From Thermus sediminis (lineage in GTDB: Bacteria > Deinococcota > Deinococci > Deinococcales > Thermaceae), in contig NZ_QURO01000004.1 in assembly GCF_003426945.1 (NCBI RefSeq), positions 992,001 to 1,056,000 on the forward strand: a DNA stretch of 64,000 nucleotides, read 5' to 3'. How positions within the stretch are numbered: position 1 is the stretch's first letter; each line of letters opens with the position of its first letter. This document shows, in pieces, positions 1,709 through 6,338 of this stretch. The notes under the pieces were generated by a model. The model saw nothing but the letters and a program-made list of their open reading frames with translations, had not been told where the DNA came from and made no database searches. Made by a program: the position numbers and the translations under genes.

Positions 1709-2694
1709 CCCTTGAGGAAGGCCACGTACCGCTCCAGGAGGAGGTAGGCCTCCCCCGAGGCCAGAACCTCCAGGGCCAGGCGCACCCCCTCCTCCAGGGT
1801 GGGGACTTTCCCCGCGGCGTAAAACCCCGCCCCCGCCGCCAGGGCCACGGCCCCCCCTAGGGGCCCCTTCTCCCTCCCCTTGAGGACCCTTCGGGCAAGC
1901 TCGGCGTTCTCCTCGGGGGAGCCCCCCCTTAGGGCCTCGAGGGGGGCCCGCCCCAAGCCCACCGCCTCCGGGGTGAGGGCGTAAGCCCCCTTCCCCACCT
2001 CCACCACCTGGTTCTCCCCCAAGACCAGCTCGTCCGCCCCCTCCCCGTGGACCACGAGGCCCTTGGCCCCAAGCCTCCCTAGGGCCTCGGCCATGGGGGA
2101 AAGCCACCCAGGGCTAAAGACCCCCAGCACATACCGGTCCGCCCCGGCGGGGTTGGTGAGGGGGCCCAGGAGGTTGAAGACGGTGCGGATGCCCAGCTCC
2201 GCCCGCACCGGGGCCACGTGGCGCATGGCGGGGTGGAAGACCCGGGCGAAGAGGAAGCCGAAGCCCAGGGCCTCAATGGCCTCCCCCACCCTTTCGGGAG
2301 GGGCCTCGAGGTCCACCCCCAAAGCCTCCAAGAGGTCCGCGGAGCCCGCCTTGGAACTCGCCGCCCGGTTCCCGTGCTTGGCCACGGCCACCCCGCCCGC
2401 CGCCGCCACCAAGGCCCCCAGGGTGGAGAGGTTCAGGAGGCCCTTCCCATCCCCCCCGGTGCCCACGAGGTCCAGAAGGGGGCGCCGGCCCACCTTGAGG
2501 GGCCTCGCCGCCTCCCGCATGGCCCGGGCCATGGCGGCAATCTCGTGGGGCCTCTCCCCCCTTAAGGCCAGGGCGGTGAGGAGGCCCGCCGCCTTCACCG
2601 GGGAGACCTCCCCCCGCATCAGGGCCCCCATGAGCCCATAGGCCTCCTCCTCCCCCAGCACCTCGCCTAAAAGGGCCTTCTTCAGCGCCTCCAT
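1705..2694 (-). CDS. trpD: Anthranilate phosphoribosyltransferase
   Basis: Transfers the phosphoribosyl group of PRPP to anthranilate, the second step of tryptophan synthesis. The 329-residue length is normal. The PRPP-binding loop GTGGD lies at residues 78-82, KHGNR at 106-110, and the NLLGPLTNPA motif near 175. It is the last gene of the minus-strand trpE-trpG-trpD cluster and its start overlaps the end of trpG by 13 nt, which implies translational coupling. Expression should therefore fall under the attenuator upstream of trpE. Confidence 0.96.
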   Translation of the reverse strand: MEALKKALLGEVLGEEEAYGLMGALMRGEVSPVKAAGLLTALALRGERPHEIAAMARAMREAARPLKVGRRPLLDLVGTGGDGKGLLNLSTLGALVAAAGGVAVAKHGNRAASSKAGSADLLEALGVDLEAPPERVGEAIEALGFGFLFARVFHPAMRHVAPVRAELGIRTVFNLLGPLTNPAGADRYVLGVFSPGWLSPMAEALGRLGAKGLVVHGEGADELVLGENQVVEVGKGAYALTPEAVGLGRAPLEALRGGSPEENAELARRVLKGREKGPLGGAVALAAGAGFYAAGKVPTLEEGVRLALEVLASGEAYLLLERYVAFLKG

Positions 2695-3263
2695 GGGTCC
2701 TCCAGGAAGTTCTTGAGGATGAGTTTACCGGCTTCCGTGAGGTAGCTTTCCGGGTGGAACTGGACCCCGTGGGTGGGGAAGTCCCGGTGGCGGAAGCCCA
2801 TCACCGTCCGCCCCCCCGCCTCCTCCACCCAGGCGTTGACCCGAAGCTCCTCGGGCACCGCCTCCACCACCAAGGAGTGGTAGCGGGTGGCGGGGAAGGG
2901 GTTGGGCAGGCCCCGGAAGACCCCGGTGCCGTCGTGGTGGATGGCGCTCACCTTCCCGTGCATGACGACCGGGGCCAGCACCACCTTCCCCCCGAAGGCG
3001 GCCCCGATGGCCTGGTGCCCCAGGCAGACCCCCAGGATGGGGTAGCGGGGGGCGTAGCGCCCGATGAGGGGAAGGGAAAGCCCCGCCTCCAAGGGGGTGC
3101 AGGGCCCGGGGCTGATGAGGATGCGGTCCGGGTCCAAGGCCTCCACCTCCTCCAGGGCGAACCGGTCGTTCCGCCAGACCACGGGCCTCGCCCCCATCTC
3201 CCCCAGGTACTGGACCAGGTTGTAGGTGAAGCTGTCGTAGTTGTCTATCACCAAAACGGTCAT
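2682..3263 (-). CDS. trpG: Anthranilate synthase glutamine amidotransferase subunit
   Basis: Supplies ammonia from glutamine to TrpE for anthranilate synthesis. The class I amidotransferase triad is visible: the nucleophile Cys80 in GVCLGHQ and the FHPES histidine/glutamate near the C-terminus. It is 193 residues long, starting at MTVLVIDNYDS. The open frame extends upstream, but this ATG overlaps the trpE stop as ATGA (3260-3263) and matches the family N-terminus. The overlap suggests trpE-trpG translational coupling and equal amounts of the two subunits. Confidence 0.95.
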   Translation of the reverse strand: MTVLVIDNYDSFTYNLVQYLGEMGARPVVWRNDRFALEEVEALDPDRILISPGPCTPLEAGLSLPLIGRYAPRYPILGVCLGHQAIGAAFGGKVVLAPVVMHGKVSAIHHDGTGVFRGLPNPFPATRYHSLVVEAVPEELRVNAWVEEAGGRTVMGFRHRDFPTHGVQFHPESYLTEAGKLILKNFLEDPWRR

Positions 3264-4648
3264 AAACCCGCCTCCGCCATCTCCACCGCCTTGAGGAGGG
3301 CCCTCGCCTTGTTCAGGCACTCCTCGTACTCCCTCTCCGGCACCGAGTCCGCCACGATCCCCGCCCCCGCCTGGACGTGCATCCGCCCCCCAGCGATGAC
3401 GAAGGTGCGCAGGGTGAGGGCCATGTCCATGGCCCCGTCGTAGGCCAGGTAGCCGAAGGCCCCCCCGTAGGGGCCCCTCCGGTGGGGCTCCAGCTCCTCG
3501 ATGATCTCCATGGCCCGGATCTTGGGGGCCCCGGAGACGGTGCCCATGGGGAGGACGCTGGCCAGGGCGTCCAAGGGGGTCTTCCCCTCGGCCAGGACCC
3601 CTTCCACCGTGGAGACCAGGTGCATCACGTGGGAGTAGGGCTCCACGTGCAGGGGCTCGAGGACCCGCACCGTGCCGAAGGCGGCCACCCGGCCGATGTC
3701 GTTGCGGGAGAGGTCCAGGAGCATCACGTGCTCCGCCCGCTCCTTTTCGTCCTTTAGAAGCTCCTCGGCAAGCCTCCTGTCCTCCTCCTCGTCCCTCCCC
3801 CGGGGCCTGGTGCCCGCGATGGGCCGGGTCACCACCCTCCTCCCGTCCGAGCGCAGGAGGCTTTCCGGGCTGGCCGAGACCAGGACCACCTCCCCCAGGT
3901 CCAAGTAGCCCATGTAGGGGCTCGGGTTCACGCTCCTTAGGGCGCGGTAGAGGGCGAAGGGGTGGACGGTGAGGGGGGAGGAGAGCCTTAGGGAGAGGAC
4001 CACCTGGAAGATGTCCCCAGCGCGGATGTAGCCGAGGGCCTTCCTGACCGCCTCCAGGTAGGCCTCCCGGCTCATGTCCGCCTGGAAGCTGGCCCTCCCC
4101 CCCGCCCGCTCCCCCGGCACCCCGGGGAGGGGGCCCTTGAGCCTCCCCTCCGCCCAGGCCAGGCGCGCCTCCGCCTCCTCCGCGCTTTGGGCCGGGGCCA
4201 CCAGGTGGAGGAGGCTTTTGGTGTGGTCAAAGACCAGGACCACCTCCGGCTCCACGAAGAGGAGGTCGGGGAGAGAGAGGTCGTCGGGCTTGAGGCTAGG
4301 AAGTTTTTCGTAGTAACGGATGAGATCGTAGGCCGCGTACCCCACCACGCCCCCGAAGAAGGGGGGGAGGTCGGGGTGGCGCTCCAGGGGGGCGGAGACG
4401 GCTTCGTAGAGGGTGCGCAAGGGGTCTTGGGCCTTCACCTTCTCCCCGTTCACGGTGAAGACCCCGTCCTTAAGGCGGAAGGTGCGCCTCGCCCCCACCC
4501 CCACGATGGAGAAGCGGCTCTGCCGCCCCCTTTCCACCGATTCCAGGAGGAAGCTCACGGGGGCCTTTTCCGAAAGCTTCAGGTAGGCGGTCACCGGGGT
4601 TTCCAGGTCCGCGAGGAAGGTCCTGCGAAAGGGTCTTATGGGTTCCAT
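3260..4648 (-). CDS. trpE: Anthranilate synthase component I
   Basis: Converts chorismate to anthranilate together with TrpG, the committed step to tryptophan. At 462 residues it is full length. The LLES motif at residues 34-37 is the known tryptophan feedback-binding element of this family. The chorismate-binding core carries IAGTRPRGR and the EKERAEHVMLLDLSRND stretch. The leader region at 4658-4756 contains a short peptide gene with two adjacent Trp codons and a terminator-like hairpin, so regulation by attenuation as well as feedback is likely. Confidence 0.96.
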   Translation of the reverse strand: MEPIRPFRRTFLADLETPVTAYLKLSEKAPVSFLLESVERGRQSRFSIVGVGARRTFRLKDGVFTVNGEKVKAQDPLRTLYEAVSAPLERHPDLPPFFGGVVGYAAYDLIRYYEKLPSLKPDDLSLPDLLFVEPEVVLVFDHTKSLLHLVAPAQSAEEAEARLAWAEGRLKGPLPGVPGERAGGRASFQADMSREAYLEAVRKALGYIRAGDIFQVVLSLRLSSPLTVHPFALYRALRSVNPSPYMGYLDLGEVVLVSASPESLLRSDGRRVVTRPIAGTRPRGRDEEEDRRLAEELLKDEKERAEHVMLLDLSRNDIGRVAAFGTVRVLEPLHVEPYSHVMHLVSTVEGVLAEGKTPLDALASVLPMGTVSGAPKIRAMEIIEELEPHRRGPYGGAFGYLAYDGAMDMALTLRTFVIAGGRMHVQAGAGIVADSVPEREYEECLNKARALLKAVEMAEAGL

Positions 4649-4657
4649 GCCGCCCCC

Positions 4658-4688
4658 TAAAAGAACCCCCCGGGGCCTACCCCGGGGG
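4658..4688 (-). terminator. trp attenuator hairpin
   Basis: On the minus strand a perfect 9-bp stem (CCCCCGGGG, 4688-4680; CCCCGGGGG, 4675-4667) with a 4-nt loop is followed by TTCTTTT. This is an intrinsic terminator shape just before the trpE start at 4648. The upstream segment around 4710-4700 can pair with the first arm as an antiterminator. Confidence 0.75.
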
Positions 4689-4711
4689 AAAGACCGCCTC
4701 CCTCCCGGGGC

Positions 4712-4744
4712 CTAGCCGGGCCACCAGAAGGAGGTCGGGGTCAT
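4712..4744 (-). CDS. trpL: trp leader peptide
   Basis: A 10-residue open frame reads MTPTSFWWPG then TAG, with tandem tryptophan codons at residues 7-8 (4726-4721). It lies just upstream of the attenuator hairpin, as in classical trp operon leaders, where ribosome stalling at Trp codons favours an antiterminator. Its ATG sits exactly 6 nt after a TATCCT box, so it would be translated from a leaderless transcript. No homology search was possible; the assignment rests on position, the WW codons and the downstream hairpin. Confidence 0.75.
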   Translation of the reverse strand: MTPTSFWWPG

Positions 4745-4747
4745 GCT

Positions 4748-4780
4748 CCCAGGATAGCCCAAGGGGGCCTCCTGGGTCTA
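4748..4780 (-). promoter_or_regulatory. trp promoter and inverted repeat
   Basis: On the minus strand TAGACC (4780-4775), an 18-nt spacer and TATCCT (4756-4751) precede the trpL ATG by 6 nt. A 7-bp inverted repeat, CCCAGGA/TCCTGGG (4748-4754 and 4770-4776), brackets the -10 box and could be an operator. It lies right after the P5C dehydrogenase stop, making trp an independent transcription unit. Confidence 0.6.
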
Positions 4781-4787
4781 GGGGGTC

Positions 4788-6338
4788 CTAAAACCGCTCG
4801 GCCACGGTCTTCATCTCCAGGAAGTGGAGGAGGTAGTCGGGGCCGCCCGCCTTGGTGTCGGTGCCGGAGAGGCCGAAGCCGCCAAAGGGCTGGACCCCCA
4901 CCAGGGCCCCGGTGATCTTGCGGTTGAAGTAGAGGTTCCCCACGTGGAACTCCCGCCTCGCCCTCTCCAGGTGCTCCCGCTTCCTGGAGTAAACCCCGCC
5001 CGTGAGGCCGTAGACGGTGTTGTTGGCCACCTCCAGGGCCTCGCCGAAGTCCCCCACCCGGATCACGGAGAGCACGGGGCCGAAGATCTCCTCCTGGGCG
5101 ATCCTGGCCGTGGGGGGCACCTCGGTGAAGACCGTGGGGGCGAGGAAATAGCCCTCCCCTTCCAGTCGCTTTCCCCCAAGGACAAGCCTTCCCTCCCCCT
5201 TGCCGATCTCGATGTAGGAGAGGATCTTCTCCTCCTGGGCCTTGGAAGCCACGGGGCCCAGGTCGGGGTTCTCCTCCGCCGGGCCCACGGTAAGGCGCCG
5301 GGCCCGCTCCAGCACTCGCTCCAACACGGGCTCGTAGGCCCCTTCCGTGAGGATGAGGCGGCTTGCGGCGGAGCACTTCTGCCCCTGGAAGCCGTAGCCG
5401 GAGACCAGGATGCCCTCCGTGGCCAGGTCAAAGTCCGCGGTCTCGTCCACGATGATGGCGTCCTTGCCGCCGAGCTCCAGGAAGACCCGTTTGAGCCACC
5501 TCTGCCCCGGGGCCAGGCGGCTTGCCGCCTGGTGGATGAAGAGGCCCACTTCGAGGCTCCCCGTGAAGTTGATGAACCGGGTCCTGGGGTGGTCCACCAG
5601 GTAGGCCCCCACCTCCCGCCCCTCCCCGGGGAGGAGGTTCACCACCCCCGGGGGGAAGCCCGCCTCGTGGAAGACCTCGAAGGCCTTGGCGGCGATGACC
5701 GGGGTGACCTCCGCGGGCTTGGCCACCACGGTGTTCCCCACGGCCACGGGCCCGGCGATCATCCCGGTGAAGATGGCCAGGGGAAAGTTCCAGGGGGCGA
5801 TGACCACCCCCGCCCCCAGGGGCAGGTAGAAGCTCTCGTTGTCCTCCCCGGGGTAGGGGACCACCTCCACCGAGGGGTACTTGTACTTGAGGGCCTGGCG
5901 GGCGTAGTACTCCAGGAAGTCGATGGCCTCGGCCACCTCGGCGCTGGCCTCGGTCCAGTTCTTGCCGATCTCGTAGACCAAGGTGGCCTCCAGCTCCCGC
6001 CGCCTCCTCTTCATGAGGGCCGCCGCCTTGAGGAGAAGGCGGCTACGGTCCTCCTGGGGCCAGTCCTTCCAGGCCTTAAAGGCCTTCCAGGCGGCCTCGA
6101 GGGCGGCCTCGGCCTCCGCCTTCCCCCCCTTGGCCACCGTCCCCACCACCTCGCCCGGGGCGGAAGGGTTTAGGGAGGCGATCCTCTCCCCCGTGTCCAC
6201 CCACTCCCCCCCGAGGTAGAGGGGCCAGTGGCGGCCAAACTCGGCCCTGACCCGCCTCAGGGCCTCCCGCATCTCCCGCCTGGTCTCTTCGCTGGCGAAG
6301 GTCTCTATGGGCTGGTTCCGGAAAGTTTCCACGGTCAT
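4788..6338 (-). CDS. pruA: 1-pyrroline-5-carboxylate dehydrogenase
   Basis: Oxidises P5C/glutamate semialdehyde to glutamate with NAD+, the second step of proline degradation. The 516-residue aldehyde dehydrogenase shows [14 protein letters not shown] (NAD pocket, about 178-190), the catalytic Glu288 in LELGGKD and catalytic Cys322 in FQGQKCS. It closely resembles the structurally known T. thermophilus enzyme. It lies 9 nt after the proline dehydrogenase stop with a strong AGGAGGAG ribosome site, so the two are co-transcribed. Some databases use rocA for this function. Confidence 0.95.

Follow-up and report, generated by a model that had tools for sequence, protein, structure and literature searches.

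The trpE leader and its conservation

The element considered here lies on the minus strand of the window (the whole 64-kb stretch of Thermus sediminis DNA that was analysed), with a P5C dehydrogenase gene, ending at 4788, on one side and trpE on the other. The encoded dehydrogenase resembles, without being identical to, a PDB chain of this enzyme that is probably from T. thermophilus. The genes that follow it form a trpE–trpG–trpD operon. They comprise trpE for anthranilate synthase component I (3260–4648, TIGR00564 above cut-off), trpG (2682–3263, TIGR00566 above cut-off), which overlaps the trpE stop codon in an ATGA, and trpD for anthranilate phosphoribosyltransferase (1705–2694, TIGR01245 above cut-off). 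trpE has a Shine–Dalgarno-like sequence of its own, AGGGGG (4653–4658), at which many other Thermus carry AGGAGG.

The region upstream of trpE is densely packed. A −35-like hexamer TAGACC (4775–4780) is separated by an 18-nt spacer from a −10 box TATCCT, and 6 nt after this box a short ORF begins (ATGACCCCGACCTCCTTCTGGTGGCCCGGCTAG, 4712–4744), the predicted start of which coincides with the first base of the transcript. The 10-codon frame MTPTSFWWPG-stop that the initial annotation had placed 6 nt past a TATCCT box was thus found at 4744–4712, with the box at 4756–4751. Four pairing segments accompany the ORF. Segment 1 (TGACCCCGACCTCCTT, 4728–4743) has segment 2 (GCCCCGGGAGGGAGGCGGTCT, 4691–4711) as its partner if it is not covered by a ribosome, and its duplex with nucleotides 4707–4691 amounts to −22.8 kcal/mol. 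Segment 2 is at the same time the 5′ arm of an antiterminator. Segment 3 (CCCCCGGGG, 4680–4688) can act either as the 3′ arm of this antiterminator or as the 5′ arm of the terminator, in which it forms 9 perfect pairs with segment 4 (CCCCGGGGG, 4667–4675). Both structures had been claimed from the first inspection of the sequence and both are present: the perfect 9-bp hairpin CCCCCGGGG-TAGG-CCCCGGGGG (4688–4667, loop TAGG, −21 kcal/mol) with the U tract GTTCTTTT (4666–4659) of an intrinsic terminator, and a stretch behind the stop codon, GCCCCGGGAGGG (4711–4700), that pairs with the terminator 5′ arm. On both strands of the 64-kb window there are 2 cases of a TANNNT box standing 5–7 nt ahead of an ORF of 7–36 codons, and only the trpE leader has a strong terminator downstream.

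Searches with TrpE covered 111 genomes of the class and upstream regions were obtained for many of those outside Thermus; the family names used below for the relatives are our own assignments. By DNA similarity, each of the 27 Thermus genomes has a homologue of the leader, while all 33 other Thermaceae/Marinithermaceae genomes examined possess an ORF with Trp codons, arranged in a run of two or three. All 60 of these leaders have a terminator with a T-rich tail before trpE. Two deeper families, represented by 8 genomes, likewise have a W-rich leader followed by a terminator in every case (8/8), with endings such as NWWWQLG-stop and QQWWPS-stop. At several Thermus loci no P5C dehydrogenase gene could be found next to the leader, which argues that the leader tracks trpE and not the upstream gene. 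The comparison proposed in the initial annotation, for WW codons and compensatory changes in the stems, came out strongly in its favour: every one of the 27 Thermus and of the 33 other Thermaceae/Marinithermaceae genomes has a leader with Trp codons and the terminator, and the stems show signs of compensatory change. Judged by this comparison, the leader and its terminator are not the product of chance. A pattern scan across the genus for further WW leaders proved too loose for interpretation, most of the matches listed resembling ordinary −10/ATG starts.

The variation among the leaders is unevenly distributed. In Thermus the Trp run, the PG and the stop codon are nearly fixed while the preceding codons vary, each of the five positions before the Trp run (−1 to −5) being occupied by six or seven different residues. 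Pro-Gly-stop (4712–4720 in the window) ends 50 of the 55 distinct leaders, and the codon changes within it are synonymous; of the 32 distinct leaders from the other Thermaceae/Marinithermaceae, 28 have this ending. Outside Thermus all four codons are used for the Gly and two for the Pro, which indicates that it is the end of the peptide that is kept, rather than the DNA alone. Individual leaders depart from the common form: the Thermus genome L009, with a TrpE 94% identical to that of the window species, has a single Trp codon (MNLTSLRPWPG-stop) in an otherwise intact leader, L016 has three Trp codons and L013 ends in WWSG-stop.

Covariation of the arms and the computed switch

We compared the native arms of each species with arms exchanged between species in 2000 permutations. 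For 1:2 the native pairing was reached by 3/2000 permutations in Thermus and by 0/2000 elsewhere, and for 3:4 by 0/2000 both in Thermus and elsewhere. The antiterminator pairing 2:3 was reached by 8/2000 permutations outside Thermus; within the genus, where segments 2 and 3 hardly vary, 1814/2000 permutations attained the native value. Covarying arms are illustrated by CCTCCCTCC with GGAGGGAGG in L005 and CCTCCGCCC with GGGCGGAGG in L007, and for the antiterminator by CTCCAGG with CCTGGA in L072. Kinship between the species inflates the permutation counts, and the covariation of the arms therefore supports the pairings without proving them.

Folding was computed at 65 °C with the ribosome footprint blocked out. 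With the whole hairpin present and at equilibrium, the median terminator probability in the other genera was 0.94 with no ribosome, 0.13 with a ribosome at the first Trp codon and 0.96 with one at the stop codon. The Thermus terminator at equilibrium was mostly favoured despite a stalled ribosome (0.92–0.95 for the window sequence at 65 °C). Since equilibrium folding did not yield a full switch in Thermus, we adopted a nascent-RNA model, in which the transcript ends after segment 3 and the readout is the fraction of segment 3 that is paired with segment 2. Under this model the Thermus median of 2:3 pairing was 0.13 in ribosome-free RNA, rose to 0.96 when a ribosome occupied either the first or the last Trp codon, and was 0.06 when it stood on the stop codon; the window sequence gave 0.14, 0.98 at Trp and 0.12, respectively. 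In the other genera the medians were 0.02 without a ribosome, 0.91 at the first Trp codon, 0.81 at the last and 0.00 at the stop. The native contrast between the Trp and the stop positions was reached by 5% of shuffles on average when segments 1 and 2 were shuffled. In these computations the antiterminator excludes the terminator, and which of them is formed is set by the position of the ribosome; termination is allowed when the ribosome stands on the stop codon or is absent. Given the stability of the Thermus terminator at equilibrium, we infer that the switch must act during transcription, through the order in which the segments are synthesised. That the order of synthesis decides the fold is the usual assumption for attenuators.

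Probable attenuation of trpEGD and the competing explanations

Taken together, these data make it very probable that the trpEGD leader is a classical ribosome-mediated transcription attenuator, about 85 nt long and situated on a transcript that is predicted to be leaderless. The first transcribed base would be the A of the leader ATG (4744), where the ribosome would initiate without a Shine–Dalgarno sequence. When Trp-tRNA is scarce, the ribosome would stall on the two Trp codons and cover segment 1, so that segment 2 would be free, on emerging, to pair with segment 3; the terminator could then not nucleate and RNA polymerase would continue into trpEGD. When Trp is plentiful, the ribosome would proceed to the UAG and cover segment 2, or depart so that 1:2 forms. 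With segment 2 occupied, segments 3 and 4 would pair and transcription would stop near 4660. C-terminal Pro and Gly are poor contexts for termination, and a delayed release of the peptide may for this reason belong to the switch: the near-invariant Pro-Gly probably holds the ribosome at the stop codon for longer, so that segment 2 stays covered. The trp attenuator with a WW leader that had been proposed for this site is supported by the ORF, the terminator, the computed switch, the covariation and the agreement of 60/60 relatives.

The terminated leader might additionally, or even mainly, be a trans-acting small RNA, or the peptide itself might be active, in the manner of rnTrpL/peTrpL. Terminated leaders of such a kind do act in trans in Sinorhizobium meliloti (PMC7298713), and the retention of the (W)WPG end of the peptide through synonymous codon changes would fit an active peptide. 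The residues ahead of the Trp run vary, however, and a switch operating in cis accounts for the anatomy of the leader without any trans role; we regard this explanation as unlikely.

Attenuation could also operate on an mRNA that is initiated further upstream, the leader being translated from a 5′ UTR. The spacing between the −10 box and the ATG, which is often 7–9 nt outside Thermus, where a few of the −10 assignments are weak, allows that a few 5′ nucleotides may precede the ATG there, and the values of up to 9 nt in Meiothermus-like genomes speak for such a reading. Against it, a −10 box accompanied by a −35-like hexamer stands exactly 6 nt from the leader ATG in all 27 Thermus, a spacing at which the usual start site falls on the A of this ATG. 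The box itself reads TATCCT or TATTCT in 25 of the 27 (that of L016 is an odd TAAGGT), and CTAGAC or CTGGAC is kept at the −35 position in nearly all species of the genus. The 6 nt of the gap, GGGAGC in the window, contain no Shine–Dalgarno sequence for the leader ORF, nor do they leave room for a properly spaced one. Leaderless expression is moreover a habit of the phylum: leaderless genes are predicted to make up about 39% on average in Deinococcus-Thermus (PMC3160421), and according to a paper of 2025 a −10 region adjoining the ORF is an important mode of expression in this phylum and yields leaderless mRNA (PMC12340547). An upstream start is consequently quite improbable in our view, and the trpE leader mRNA is predicted to be leaderless. 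The placing of the leader ORF at the 5′ end of the transcript in the initial annotation is thereby upheld as a prediction, by the fixed spacing and the habit of the phylum; this feature, there called unusual, has precedents in S. meliloti and Streptomyces.

The two remaining explanations dispense with the leader peptide. A strong hairpin does sit between the P5C dehydrogenase gene and trpE, and it might be a constitutive terminator of the former, the WW frame being accidental and the trpE promoter lying elsewhere; yet 60 genomes have kept the Trp codons, the ORF, the −10 box and the terminator as a set, even where the upstream gene is different, and a plain terminator has no use for a folding switch or for 1:2 covariation, which leaves this reading very little credibility. 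Finally, sensors such as the T-box, TRAP and riboswitch-like folds are generally known to govern trp genes elsewhere in bacteria, but control by one of them, with the ORF secondary, is scarcely conceivable here, as the Rfam 15 covariance models gave no match at gathering thresholds in the 64-kb window (and weak, unrelated matches only when seven related loci were scanned at E up to 1), and as the ORF and segments 1–4 take up the leader of about 85 nt with little space left.

Comparison with other leaders and implications for the Deinococci

The leader interpreted here as an attenuator resembles trpL of Escherichia coli in several respects. Both have a short leader ORF with tandem Trp codons, four segments that can pair and a terminator ahead of trpE, and in both the outcome would be set by the position of the ribosome. 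The E. coli trpL leader is led by a Shine–Dalgarno sequence and has a longer 5′ UTR, whereas the Thermus ORF has 10 codons, is predicted to be leaderless and has its segment 1 ahead of the Trp codons. Because the Thermus leader has no Rfam match, sequence homology with E. coli trpL is not established. An attenuator-like structure before trpE of T. thermophilus HB8 is reportedly mentioned in the abstract of Sato et al. 1988 (BBA 950:303).

Leaders that begin at their own ATG are known from two other phyla. The 5′ end of the S. meliloti trpL RNA is its own ATG (PMC7298713), and the same paper, citing Bae and Crawford 1990, states that this trpL attenuates anthranilate synthase. The Thermus leader, with its predicted start at the ATG, is similar to this rnTrpL/peTrpL element before trpE(G); the phylum and the sequence differ, however, and the trans role belongs to S. 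meliloti. In Streptomyces lividans the leaderless leader peptides leuL, thrL and metL stand ahead of genes for biosynthesis, transport or tRNA charging (PMC8079986). They share with the Thermus leader a short ORF at the 5′ end of the transcript (in Thermus, a predicted one), but several of these actinobacterial leaders are without a typical terminator, while that in Thermus is strong. Our literature search found no paper joining Deinococcus, leader peptide, leaderless mRNA and attenuator. The kind of element is already known; the comparative picture may be new.

A different leaderless-type ORF precedes trpE in 10 Trueperaceae-like genomes of 8 genera (L083, L087, L088, L089, L096, L100, L101, L114, L118 and L119). 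It carries the motif WTG[AV]LGRW, mostly as SWTG[AV]LGRWR and in the general form [SR]WTG[AV]LGRW, and a TATACT box lies 6–8 nt ahead of its ATG. The motif occurs once per genome, in every case upstream of trpE, and most of the 10 leaders have no convincing terminator before this gene. Among them the codons CGA-TGG are invariant, and the T, G, L and G codons of the motif show 125 synonymous versus 0 non-synonymous pairwise differences. This pattern suggests that selection acts on the nascent peptide, possibly an arrest or sensor peptide. In a pattern scan of the genome collection the motif matched 6 contigs with the labels Trueperaceae, Truepera, Deinococci or Thermus/Deinococcus group, together with 5 contigs from other phyla, about as many as chance could produce, and the motif was not found in any paper in our literature search. 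Nine further Trueperaceae-like genomes (L102–L108, L111 and L112) have no such leader; their trpE is located close behind another gene, the C-terminus of which we read by eye as that of an enoyl-ACP reductase (fabI), and the regulation of trpE must differ there.

It is conceivable, though we advance it only tentatively and think it rather doubtful, that a leaderless trpE leader is ancestral to the Deinococci, with leaderless initiation and a Pro-Gly-stop that holds the ribosome as its working parts, and that the Trueperaceae, with their SWTG[AV]LGRWR leaders, have moved to a terminator-free control dependent on the peptide sequence. As far as the computational signs go, the textbook logic of trp attenuation would work with a leader ORF that begins at the first nucleotide of the RNA, and such a leader spans most of a bacterial class that is rich in leaderless genes. 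At about 85 nt the attenuator is very short for its type, and this brevity, in a thermophile the ribosome and RNA polymerase of which are standard structural models, would make it a clean system for tests of the coupling between leaderless initiation and transcription.
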